DNA of 45,568 nt, from positions 1-45,568 of the forward strand of contig JARXPE010000009.1 in assembly GCA_029887795.1 (NCBI GenBank), read 5' to 3'. Numbering within the stretch: the stretch's first letter is position 1; every line of letters starts with the position of its first letter. Below the pieces are notes generated by a model that was given only the letters and a program-made list of their open reading frames with translations, was not told where the DNA came from and searched no databases. Origin of the DNA: Thermoproteota archaeon. Lineage in GTDB: Archaea > Thermoproteota > Methanomethylicia > Methanomethylicales > Methanomethylicaceae. Positions 17,966-43,172 of this stretch are shown in pieces. The translations under genes and the position numbers were made by a program.

Positions 17966-18051
17966 GCCCCAGTGGCTCAGCCTGGTAGAGCACCGCCTTG
18001 GTAAACTACCCAAAGAGGCGGTGGTCGCGGGTTCAAACCCCGCCTGGGGCT
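17966..18051 (+). tRNA. tRNA-Thr (GGT) with a 12-nt intron
   Basis: Acceptor GCCCCAG pairs with CTGGGGC. The anticodon stem CCGCC/GGCGG holds the loop TTGGTA-A, with an intron at the canonical site after position 37, at 18004-18015 (12 nt). The mature tRNA is 74 nt. The discriminator is T and CCA is not encoded. An AT-rich promoter element lies at about 17925-17940. Confidence 0.95.
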
Positions 18052-22339: not shown

Positions 22340-23986
22340 ATGCCTACAATAAATATCGACATGAAAGATCTTAAGCGACTCATTGGTCTCAATCTTGATG
22401 AAAATACGATCTATGATACCCTCTCTGCCTTGAAATGTGAGCCAGAGCAGATAGTCGGAGACAAGATTACGCTGGAAGTCACATCAGACAGACCAGATTT
22501 TTTCAGTTGTGAAGGGATTGCAAGAGGGATACGACTTTACTATGGTGGATCAGGACTGAAAGTGAAATATTACCAAGGCTCAAGACCAGTAAATATCAAA
22601 GTAGATCCGTCTGTGGTAGAAGTTCGACCATATATAGTATCCGCGGTCTTGCGTGATTTGAGTTTGGACGAAGAAGCCTTGGTTCAAATGATGCAACTTC
22701 AGGAGAAGCTTCATACCACTTACTGCTCTAACAGGAAAAAAGGGTCAATTGGAATATATGACATGGATAAGATATGTCCTCCGCTTGTATATGTGGCGCT
22801 CCCTCCTAATGATATAAGATTCACCCCCTTGGGCTCAAATGAGATTATGGATGGTTTCGATATTTTGAAAAAAACCCCCAAGGGGAAGGAGTACGCTTGG
22901 ATTTTAGAAGAAAAGAGCAAGTACCCACTGCTCATTGATTCTAAAGGCACAGTACTCTCAATGCCACCTATAATAAACAGTGAAGACACAAAGGTAACAG
23001 AGGATACCAAAAACCTCATAATTGATGTCACAGGGACCGAGGAGCGTACAATAAATCTTTGCTTAAACATTTTGGTAACCTCTTTGATGGAAAGGGGCGG
23101 AGCTCTCCAGCAAGTGATAGTAACATATGGAGGGCGCGAGATCATTACACCAAAACTGGATTTTGTCCAGACCAATCTGAACCTATCAACGATAAAAAGT
23201 GTTGCCGGATTAGACTTGAACCCGGATGAGGTTTTAAGGCTTCTAAGGAAGATGGGACATAATGTGGAAGGCGGAGAGGGAAGGGTTATTGTTTGGTCGC
23301 CGCCTTATAGAGCAGACATTATTCATGAAGTCGATTTAGTAGAAGACATTGTAATTGCGATTGGTTTGAACAACATAAAGCCAGAGATACCCACAGTTGC
23401 AACAATAGGAAGACCGCTTAAAGGGAGCAAAGTCAGAAAACGGGTAAGGGACTTAATGATCGGTATGGGCTTTCAAGAAGTAATAACATATCTACTCAGT
23501 AACAAATCGGTTTTGGAAGATAAGGTGCTCATGAATAAAAGGACTCTCGTGGAACTGATAAACCCAGTATCATCCGAATACTCAGTTCTGAGGGATTGCA
23601 TTTTGCCAAAACTTTTGCAATTTTTGGGACAAAACACACACCATCCGTACCCCCAGCGTATTTTCGAGTGTGGCGATGTGGTTTTCGTTCAGGATGGTTT
23701 ACCAAAGGTTTCAACGCATTTGGCAGCAGTCATTGCAGATCATAAGGTGAGTTACGAGGACATACAGGCGGTGGCGGCCTCTTTGTTTGCTAACATGTCT
23801 AAGTCCATAAAGTTTGAGCCATATCACATGCACCCCTTCTTAGAAGGCCGCACTGCAAAGATTATACTCGATGGTGCTGATATCGGAGTAGTCGGAGAGA
23901 TATCACCTCAAGCATTATTGAATTTCGGTCTGGAATTTCCAGTTGGAGCCTTAGAATGCGACCTATCACCATTGTTAGAACATTGA
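22340..23986 (+). CDS. pheT: Phenylalanyl-tRNA synthetase beta subunit
   Basis: This 548-residue protein is the short archaeal/eukaryotic-type PheT. It has the B1-like start (MPTINIDMKDLKRLIGL), the B3/B4 region (SDRPDFFSCEGIARGI; GSIGIYDMDKI), the B5 domain (WSPPYRADIIHEVDLVEDI), and the catalytic-like core. The start codon directly follows the pheS stop, and the pheS end (GGAGAAGGGGTGGG) supplies the SD. Confidence 0.95.
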   Translation: MPTINIDMKDLKRLIGLNLDENTIYDTLSALKCEPEQIVGDKITLEVTSDRPDFFSCEGIARGIRLYYGGSGLKVKYYQGSRPVNIKVDPSVVEVRPYIVSAVLRDLSLDEEALVQMMQLQEKLHTTYCSNRKKGSIGIYDMDKICPPLVYVALPPNDIRFTPLGSNEIMDGFDILKKTPKGKEYAWILEEKSKYPLLIDSKGTVLSMPPIINSEDTKVTEDTKNLIIDVTGTEERTINLCLNILVTSLMERGGALQQVIVTYGGREIITPKLDFVQTNLNLSTIKSVAGLDLNPDEVLRLLRKMGHNVEGGEGRVIVWSPPYRADIIHEVDLVEDIVIAIGLNNIKPEIPTVATIGRPLKGSKVRKRVRDLMIGMGFQEVITYLLSNKSVLEDKVLMNKRTLVELINPVSSEYSVLRDCILPKLLQFLGQNTHHPYPQRIFECGDVVFVQDGLPKVSTHLAAVIADHKVSYEDIQAVAASLFANMSKSIKFEPYHMHPFLEGRTAKIILDGADIGVVGEISPQALLNFGLEFPVGALECDLSPLLEH

Positions 23987-24103
23987 GTTCGAACACTCGC
24001 ATCCATTGAAATTTAATATTGGTATGAATGTAGGGAAAACCCATTTTTGAGTTTGCAAAGTTTATCTTTAGGCTGGTACAAATATAAGATTGCGATGAGG
24101 TGG

Positions 24104-24210
24104 GAGCCGAGCGCCGTGAGGTGAGAAAGCGGGTCGAAGGGGTCAAGTGAGTCGAGCGTTGCTCAGCAATGAACATGACCTAACCCACACCCGCGACAGC
24201 CTCACGGCTC
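24104..24210 (+). ncRNA. Structured RNA candidate 1, upstream of tyrS
   Basis: A non-coding stretch folds into one long arm: GCCGTGAGG (24113-24121) pairs with CCTCACGGC (24200-24208), an inner GCGGGT (24129-24134) pairs with ACCCGC (24189-24194), and GGTCA (24141-24145) pairs with TGACC (24176-24180). GAGCC at 24104-24108 can also pair with GGCTC at 24206-24210. A TATA-like AAATATAAG at about 24079-24087 sits about 25 nt upstream on the plus strand. No open frame fits. I cannot assign a family; it is not an obvious RNase P RNA, box C/D or H/ACA RNA. Confidence 0.5.
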
Positions 24211-24245
24211 AAATAGTTAAATAAGGAAGTTTTCATTAAATTCAT

Positions 24246-24351
24246 GGGCAGGTCGCCGGATAGATCCCGATGAGAGAGAGCCCGCCTGAGCTGGATGAAA
24301 CGTCCTTCGATGAGGTTGGGTGTTAGCATCGGGAAACACGGCGGCTTGCCC
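24246..24351 (+). ncRNA. Structured RNA candidate 2 or tyrS leader element
   Basis: A 13-bp uninterrupted closing stem joins 24246-24258 to 24339-24351 (one G-U-rich stretch, no mismatch). After a small internal loop, TCCCGATG (24265-24272) pairs with CATCGGGA (24327-24334), and a third weaker stem lies inside. TTAAATA at about 24218-24225 could be its TATA box. The stem ends 18 nt before the tyrS ATG, with the tyrS SD (GGAG, 24356-24359) just outside it. It may be a free RNA or a cis-acting leader of tyrS; the sequence alone does not decide. Confidence 0.5.
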
Positions 24352-24369: not shown

Positions 24370-25434
24370 ATGGACACCATGACAAAAGTAGAGAAGGTGA
24401 TAAGGAACGCCCAAGAGATCATAACGAGAAAAGATCTTCAAGAACTGTTCGAGTCCAACACTTCCCCAAAAGGGTACATAGGTGTAGAGCCGTCTGGTTT
24501 GTTTCACTTGGGATGGGTAATATGGGTCAACAAACTTAAGGATTTAATGGACGTTGGCGTCAAAATGACGCTTTTAGAGGCTACTTGGCATGCGTGGATA
24601 AATGACAAATTTGGCGGAAATTTGGATAAGATAAACGCATGTGCAAATTATATAGAACACTGCCTTAGAGCATTAGGAGTTGAAGTTGATAGGTTGAACT
24701 TTATAAAGGCTGATGAATTGGTTGATAAGAAAGAGTATTGGGAGGGACTGCTGAAGATCGCGAAGGTCCTCTCATTATCAAGGATCAAGAGGGCCGTTAC
24801 GATAATGGGTAGAAAGGAAGATGAGACTGTTGTGGATTTCTCAAAGCTAATTTATCCATGCATGCAAGTAGAAGACATATTTTTCTTAGACCTTGACGTT
24901 TGTTTAGGCGGCATGGACCAGAGAAGAGCGCATGTTTTAGCGCGGGAAGTGGCAGAAGTTTACTCTCATAAAAAACCTGTCGCGATACATACCCCTCTTC
25001 TTCCAAGCTTGCAGGGAAAAGGAAGGATGGAGGGGGCTCTAACGGAAGAAGAGGCGATGATTGAGTATAAGATGAGCAAATCGAAGCCAGAGACTTGCAT
25101 CTTCATTCATGATTCTCCTGAGGAAATAAAGTCAAAGATAGGCAGGGCATACTGCCCCCCAATGGTAGTACAAGGCAACCCGGTGTTGGACATAGCCACT
25201 CATATAATATTAAACAAGAACAAGGGATTTGTAATTAAGAGGGACGTAAAGTATGGAGGAGATCTGATAATCGAGTCTGCAGAGGCGCTAGTGACGATGT
25301 ATTCCCAAGGAAAGATTCACCCATTAGACCTTAAGAATGCGGTATCGGAAGAACTTTCAAGAATGCTTATGCCAGTCAGAGAATACTTCAATAAGAATAA
25401 AGAAGCGCAGGATCTAATGCAGCAACTAAGATGA
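24370..25434 (+). CDS. tyrS: Tyrosyl-tRNA synthetase
   Basis: This 354-residue class I synthetase has the archaeal TyrRS features GVEPSGLFHLGW (HIGH at 46-49), WINDKFGGN, DLDVCLGGMDQRRAH, and KMSKS at 234-238. It charges tRNA-Tyr. The ATG has GGAG 10 nt upstream. It is preceded by two stable RNA hairpins rather than by a protein gene, and followed by a T-rich stretch (25450-25500). Confidence 0.94.
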   Translation: MDTMTKVEKVIRNAQEIITRKDLQELFESNTSPKGYIGVEPSGLFHLGWVIWVNKLKDLMDVGVKMTLLEATWHAWINDKFGGNLDKINACANYIEHCLRALGVEVDRLNFIKADELVDKKEYWEGLLKIAKVLSLSRIKRAVTIMGRKEDETVVDFSKLIYPCMQVEDIFFLDLDVCLGGMDQRRAHVLAREVAEVYSHKKPVAIHTPLLPSLQGKGRMEGALTEEEAMIEYKMSKSKPETCIFIHDSPEEIKSKIGRAYCPPMVVQGNPVLDIATHIILNKNKGFVIKRDVKYGGDLIIESAEALVTMYSQGKIHPLDLKNAVSEELSRMLMPVREYFNKNKEAQDLMQQLR

Positions 25435-25509
25435 AAGTAGGGATAGGAAGGTTTTTAAGTCAAGATTTTTAATTTTTACTAAATCAAATTTAATTAATTG
25501 ATAGGATGA

Positions 25510-25600
25510 GGTGTCACGCTTACTATGTTGACTCATGTGTTAGGTAAGATGTGTAGTGTCAAGGCAGCACCCATAGCCCGATGGAGGGCCTGATAAGTTT
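25510..25600 (+). ncRNA. Possible dnaG leader or small RNA
   Basis: Between tyrS and dnaG an AT-rich promoter-like block (25465-25497) is followed by about 110 non-coding bases with two small hairpins: CTTAC (25519-25523) with GTAAG (25544-25548), and GCCC (25576-25579) with GGGC (25586-25589) followed by CTGA. The CTGA resembles a box D but a convincing box C partner is not seen. It may be just a long dnaG leader. Confidence 0.25.
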
Positions 25601-25617
25601 TTTGGAGGCGAGCGGTT

Positions 25618-43083: not shown

Positions 43084-43172
43084 GGGCCCGTAGCTCAGTA
43101 CGGTAGAGCAGCGGGCTTTTAAATGAAAATGAAGACACCCGTTGGTCTCGGGTTCAAATCCCGACGGGCCCG
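43084..43172 (+). tRNA. tRNA-Lys (TTT) with a 15-nt intron
   Basis: Acceptor GGGCCCG/CGGGCCC, D arm GCTCAGTACGGTAGAGC, anticodon stem GCGGG/CCCGT, anticodon TTT. The intron is at the canonical site after position 37, 43122-43136. The mature length is 74 nt. The discriminator is G and CCA is encoded at 43173-43175. A TTAAAAGG element lies about 30 nt upstream. Confidence 0.95.

Follow-up and report, generated by a model that had tools for sequence, protein, structure and literature searches.

The closest described relatives of the RNAs reported here belong to HgcG (RF00064), the RNA known as Pab40 and Pf7 in the Thermococcales, whose hairpins have been named 40.1, 40.2 and 40.3. The hairpin RNAs HP1 and HP2 of Haloferax volcanii are homologs of Pf7 hairpins II and III, and the pseudouridines at E. 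coli positions 2586 and 1915/1917 have been assigned to them (PMC2584109). H/ACA guides are also described from the Thermoproteota, namely the H/ACA-like sRNAs sR201-sR210 of Pyrobaculum, most of which have no lower stem; the same study describes a productive H/ACA geometry, with 10 stacked layers from the pocket to the K-turn and 14 nt to the ACA box (PMC4652768).

We analysed a window of 45,568 nucleotides, positions 1 to 45,568 of contig JARXPE010000009.1 from a member of the Thermoproteota. Our analysis implies that the segment 24091-24351 of this window very probably encodes two separately promoted box H/ACA guide RNAs with predicted targets at U1921 (element 2) and U2586 (element 1) of 23S rRNA in E. 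coli numbering. Both structures are most likely pseudouridylation guides and diverged relatives of HgcG/Pab40. The pair resembles Haloferax HP1/HP2, as the text of that paper describes them, in that hairpin II and hairpin III homologs are separated by a spacer and have assigned or, here, predicted targets in the peptidyl-transferase centre (E. coli 2586) and in helix 69 (PMC2584109). According to the same text, and unlike what we predict for the elements here, HP2 is assigned U1915 and U1917, and the description of HP1/HP2 used for the comparison makes no mention of outer stems. Most of the Pyrobaculum sRNAs differ from both elements, whose lower stem is complete and is supplemented by an outer stem.

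Two structured elements between pheT and tyrS

The elements lie, as had been claimed, in a gap before tyrS, which is bounded by the end of pheT at 23986 and the start of tyrS at 24370. The gene at 24370..25434 (+ strand) is a 354-aa open reading frame which we take to encode tyrosyl-tRNA synthetase, a name that comes from the earlier reading of the sequence; we treat it as a neighbour only, and its homologs adjoin the RNA in other genomes. The same gap DNA was found in 17 genomes of the source family, with pheT and tyrS flanking it every time, and the named members among them are MAGs of Candidatus Methanomethylicota (Verstraetearchaeota), family Methanomethyliaceae. A tRNA search of the pheT-tyrS gap found no tRNA, and scanning the whole window against Rfam at gathering thresholds returned matches to 5S, SRP and tRNA only; weak Rfam matches of the gap to MEG8_2 and sR10 were set aside as chance. 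Two tRNA genes recognised by Rfam, at 17966-18051 and 43084-43172, were unreported by ARAGORN; introns or unusual arms may be the reason.

Both elements are strongly paired. Element 1 (helices 24113-24208) folds with -50.1 kcal/mol (z = -2.9 against dinucleotide shuffles), and element 2 (24246-24351) with -59.3 kcal/mol (z = -5.1), a value equalled by none of 200 shuffles. Among the 17 aligned family sequences, changes on both sides occur in 13 pairs of element 1 and in 15 pairs of element 2. The corresponding covariation scores, 0.359 and 0.361, exceed all 500 shuffles, which disregard relatedness, and lie far above every slid control, which does not disregard it and whose scores fall to about one third or less in these family alignments. 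These folding z-scores and the covariation bear out the original prediction of two independent paired elements, and the conserved stems with compensatory changes upstream of tyrS, which it had proposed to look for in relatives, were found in the 17 family genomes.

Each element also has the TATA-like box that had been ascribed to it, and most relatives have a recognisable box in the corresponding position. The box of RNA 1 (24065..24071, + strand, within AAAGTTTATCTTT) belongs to a conserved motif (G)AAAG[TC]TTAT[TC]T about 30 nt before the RNA. The box of RNA 2 (TTAAATAA, 24217..24224, + strand) stands about 26 nt before 24246 and is conserved in most of the 17 relatives. The first box fits a transcript start near 24090; therefore RNA 1 probably starts about 14 nt before position 24104, at which it was first noted. 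The likely 5' end of RNA 1 carries a small K-turn-like hairpin at 24091..24112 on the + strand (GC-GAU-GA ... GA-GC; UGCGAUGA..GAGC), which is kept in 13 of the 17 family genomes and absent in G008, G009, G012 and G013. This hairpin could serve as an additional L7Ae site or represent the remnant of another guide.

The remaining features of both elements are likewise on the + strand. In element 1 an outer stem of 10 pairs (24113..24122 with 24199..24208), 8 of which are changed on both sides within the family, encloses a hairpin II-like H/ACA core (24127..24199) that is conserved in the 17 family genomes and scores 91.9 bits with R2, our covariance model of this core. The 5' strand of the lower stem, GCGGGU (24129..24134), pairs with 24189-24194; 100% of the cells of the family alignment are paired here, with GCAGGU/ACCUGC as a compensation. 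The 5' guide CGAAGG (24135..24140), whose counterpart in relatives beyond the family reads AGACGG or CGACGG, is followed by the GA stem, K-turn and apical hairpin (24141..24180), which we assigned from sequence and alignment, with G24149 A24150 facing G24171 A24172. The 3' guide AACCC (24182..24186) and the ACA box (24196..24198), 14 nt after the pocket, are both invariant in the 17 genomes. The layers from the pocket to the distal G-A pair number 10 when counted from G24141-C24180, and 11 if G24140-U24181 closes the pocket.

Element 2 has the same build. Its outer stem joins 24246..24258 to 24339..24351 by 13 pairs, and 8 of the 11 counted pairs are changed on both sides in the family. This stem ends 18 nt before the ATG of tyrS, as originally described; the word "perfect" has to be dropped, since the stem is fully paired but contains two G-U wobbles and is not Watson-Crick throughout. 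The hairpin III-like H/ACA core (24265..24338) gives 91.6 bits with R1, the covariance model of this core, and carries the HgcG match discussed below. It consists of a lower stem, whose 5' strand (UCCCGAUG, 24265..24272) pairs with 24327-24334, the 5' guide AGAGAGA (24273..24279), kept over the phylum as AGAGA or AAGA while the stems vary, the GA stem, K-turn and apical hairpin (24280..24321), seen by covariation, the 3' guide GUUAG (24322..24326), invariant in the family and nearly so in the phylum, and the ACA box (24336..24338), again 14 nt after the pocket and invariant in the family. Ten stacked layers, 24280-24289 with 24312-24321, separate the pocket from the K-turn, counted from the closing pair 24280-24321 as far as the distal G-A pair.

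Read as H/ACA RNAs, both elements agree with the described geometry (PMC4652768): they show a hairpin made of covarying helices with a lower stem, a pocket and an upper GA stem, a K-turn at a distance of 10 layers and an ANA box that follows the pocket-closing pair at the usual 14-15 nt. A free 3' end after the ACA box, which is usual and not strictly required, is absent in the family, where the box is placed between the core and the covarying outer stem. The outer helix of each element starts directly behind the ACA box and shows strong covariation among the family genomes; it may serve protection or stability, maturation or the control of assembly. The source genome contains a nop10 gene and a partial cbf5 gene, the latter at a contig edge. 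L7Ae would bind each K-turn, Cbf5, Nop10 and Gar1 would bind the pocket and the ACA box, and the two sides of the pocket would pair with 23S rRNA so that one uridine is presented to Cbf5. Transcription, RNP assembly and modification are expected for both RNAs on the grounds of sequence and structure.

The opinion that neither element fits a known RNA class proved wrong, as both can be related to the HgcG/Pab40 guides. A permissive Rfam scan of the gap gave HgcG as the best match (22.6 bits, E 1.9e-4), strongest over the third hairpin, and elsewhere in the Thermoproteota the match to hairpin III rises as high as 47.9 bits, with E 2.5e-12 in one relative. The gathering threshold of HgcG (77 bits) was reached by none of 200 Thermoproteota genomes, and strict membership of the family was rejected on score. 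The covariance check that had been suggested returns nothing for the gap at the Rfam cut-off, but a permissive one uncovers the sub-threshold HgcG match. Element 2 is a homolog of HgcG/Pab40 hairpin III, with which it shares the K-turn (CUUCGAUGAGG), the GA stem, the 3' guide GUUA and an ACA box 14 nt further on. Element 1 appears most like hairpin II, a homology drawn from the 3' guide, the ACA spacing and the order of the elements at a model score short of significance. Since element 1 has AACCC as its 3' guide, like the second hairpin in the HgcG model, the two elements resemble hairpins II and III moved apart. Hairpin I of HgcG was not found beside the hairpin III and hairpin II-like units. 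Unlike in HgcG, the two hairpins here are separately promoted units about 65 nt apart, and an outer stem is added to each.

Predicted targets in 23S rRNA

No 23S rRNA was found in the source genome's own assembly, and because of this the targets were checked in other members of the family: all uridines of the 23S and 16S rRNA from three of these genomes (G004, G006 and G007) were scored against the pocket guides. For element 2 the helix-69 site CUGAC-[UC]-UCUUAAGG ranked first in all three; among the top sites listed, helix-69 U1921 was the only one with a favourable duplex on both sides, and a search with the joint pattern of both guides returned the helix-69 site only. Element 2 (AGAGA with GUUAG) would target the uridine in CUGAC-U-C-UCUU, which we take to be E. 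coli U1921 from an ungapped alignment of helix 69 to the E. coli sequence. The pairing is modest in the family, with 5 + 4 bp and one wobble on each side. Two homologs from other genomes (G202 and G197) have the 5' guide CCUUUAAGA, an independent and longer complement of UCUUAAGG, together with an unchanged GUUAG, which supports the assignment. Helix 69 itself hardly varies: the 92 genomes of the phylum with a match all read AGTAACTCTGACTCTCT[T/C]AAGG. Seven genomes have C at the variable position, all of them with GAGA or GAGU and never with AAGA, a guide unable to pair with this C; as GAGA pairs with both U and C, this pattern is consistent with the predicted site and lends it weak support. 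A looser scan with long guide arms pointed to several element 2 sites, one of them near E. coli 2611 in G004, and most of these were dropped because they used bases of the lower stem or were unconserved in G006 and G007.

Yeast positions 2258 and 2260 correspond to E. coli 1915 and 1917 (PMC2584109); since yeast 2258 equals E. coli 1915, E. coli 1921 equals yeast 2264. The pseudouridine at 2264 in helix 69 of yeast 25S rRNA is guided by snR3 (PMC8307265), with which element 2 would share the same uridine by numbering and the same chemistry, a parallel of function only.

The helix-69 position predicted here, U1921, differs from the U1915 of HgcG/Pab40 (P. abyssi 2016). Two homologs, in G157 (L026 1503-1573) and at L105 897-966, have the guides GGGUCA or GGUCA with GUUAC, which fit U1915, and this fit suggests that the target has moved within helix 69. 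It could even be that we deal with a lineage-specific guide in which an outer helix of about 10-13 bp clamps the hairpin and the ACA box, the target was moved by six nucleotides from the archaeal U1915 to the eukaryote-like U1921 and the link to tyrS means coupled expression; taken as a whole, we consider this combination doubtful. It is less probable still, and rather unlikely, that element 2 continues to modify U1915 or U1917 in the manner of Pab40/HgcG hairpin III and Haloferax HP2. The homology to hairpin III, the ability of GUUA in the 3' guide to pair with UAAC before U1915 and the guides GGGUCA and GUUAC of the G157 homolog agree with such a role, but AGAGA misfits beside U1915, both sides fit U1921 in the three tested genomes, and the guide of G202 and G197 lengthens the match at U1921 to UCUUAAGG.

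Element 1 (3' guide AACCCA) would target U2586 in UGGGUU-U-A-GACCGUC, within the peptidyl-transferase centre. This assignment is likely, somewhat better than an even call, and less certain than that of element 2. In the 10/5 register U2586 has by far the best 5' duplex in G004, G006 and G007, and the invariant AACCC would pair with the UGGGUU before it; with the 10/6 register (UAACCC) no target was conserved among the scanned rRNAs. The 5' guide is unpaired next to U2586, and its complement lies two nucleotides further on than the canonical pocket would permit. Outside the family the 5' guide sequence GACGG complements CCGUC just downstream, and 23S and 16S rRNA contain the joint pattern only once. 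The two paired parts of element 1 are separated by 4 to 5 nt where 2 would be canonical, and within the family the 5' guide is weaker. A pseudouridine at U2586 is known from Haloarcula (PMC2584109).

As a separate observation, the 23S rRNA gene of G009 (L048, about 2180 on the reverse strand) is apparently interrupted in helix 69 just before CTTAAGGTAGC. The interruption is probably an intron at a classic homing-endonuclease site.

Distribution in the phylum and linkage to tyrS

Model R1 found one copy each in 81 of 200 Thermoproteota genomes, from 48 of 90 genera. The phylum-wide core of element 2 contains 254 double-change cells, and its covariation is 0.705 against 0.214 in shuffles, in an alignment that was fitted to the model and favours the structure, with slid controls still at or below 0.17. 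Across the phylum the guides are constant and the stems variable. Homologs also occur in Pyrodictium or Hyperthermus relatives (L079, L084, L091). Element 1 is less widespread: the phylum scan gave it in the 17 family genomes and in G022 and G081, and diverged copies stand beside element 2 in MAGs of Bathyarchaeota, Nezhaarchaeota and others. The gap after tyrS (25435-25617) is conserved as well, with 93% to L053 over 206 nt and 77% to part of L057; it contains a GATGAGG motif and is matched neither by R1 or R2 nor by Rfam.

We sampled 80 tyrS loci, which were fetched by protein similarity. An element 2 homolog lies upstream of tyrS in 39 of them, on the same strand in 31 and on the opposite strand in 8, at distances of 27 to 434 nt; the spacing varies even within the source family. 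In one relative (G011, L022 1881-2969) a 362-codon open reading frame separates elements 1 and 2, on a MAG contig where misassembly could affect this arrangement. The 362-aa product resembles, by eye, a glycoside-hydrolase-type protein.

The opposite-strand homologs, the variable spacing, the separate boxes and the open reading frame of G011 support the pair of stand-alone RNAs which the original prediction had offered as one of two possibilities, and they indicate that the linkage to tyrS is most simply conserved gene order. One would argue that the guides could have a second use and influence tyrS as well, through an RNP that covers the start codon or through processing from the tyrS mRNA. 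The linkage does span several orders of Thermoproteota, and over much of the phylum the RNA lies a short distance from tyrS on the same strand; in addition, a RIP-seq study suggests that L7Ae regulates translation in archaea by way of K-turns (PMC5539422). However, the opposite-strand cases and the variable spacing stand against such a use, and conserved gene order gives an equal linkage, so we regard it as very unlikely.

The other possibility offered was a cis-acting leader, that is, a 5' UTR of tyrS that controls the gene by ligand-, tRNA- or protein-dependent refolding. The end of element 2 at 18 nt before the start codon and the 31 same-strand homologs could speak for a leader. Yet a leader or riboswitch needs a constant place in the 5' UTR on the strand of tyrS, and the RNA in the 8 opposite-strand loci cannot be part of that 5' UTR; thus the leader was rejected. 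The wide range of distances, the boxes of each element's own and the gene between the elements in G011 also contradict it, and those bases that are both conserved and unpaired are the ones of H/ACA guides with a complement in rRNA; as a result, we hold a leader to be extremely improbable. It is even harder to believe that the structures are terminators, processing stems or repeats, to which the strong GC-rich stems and the outer stems beyond the H/ACA core would be suited, but not the K-turn core, the fixed pocket distances, the ACA boxes, the invariant guides and the single copy per genome.

Implications for the Thermoproteota

A guide hairpin known mainly from Euryarchaea is spread through the Thermoproteota, at a recognisable place by tyrS, while Rfam at its cut-off is blind to these homologs of element 2. 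Our claim of novelty is bounded by the open-licence literature, in which no reports of these RNAs from Thermoproteota were found, and such a result is not evidence of absence. Our search found no modification map for these organisms, and the analysis makes the testable prediction of pseudouridines at helix-69 U1921 and at U2586. For the way in which Cbf5 recognises its RNA, the outer stem round the ACA box is an oddity that can be tested. Finally, the homologs suggest that the guide has been retargeted within helix 69, which would mirror the site modified in eukaryotes.
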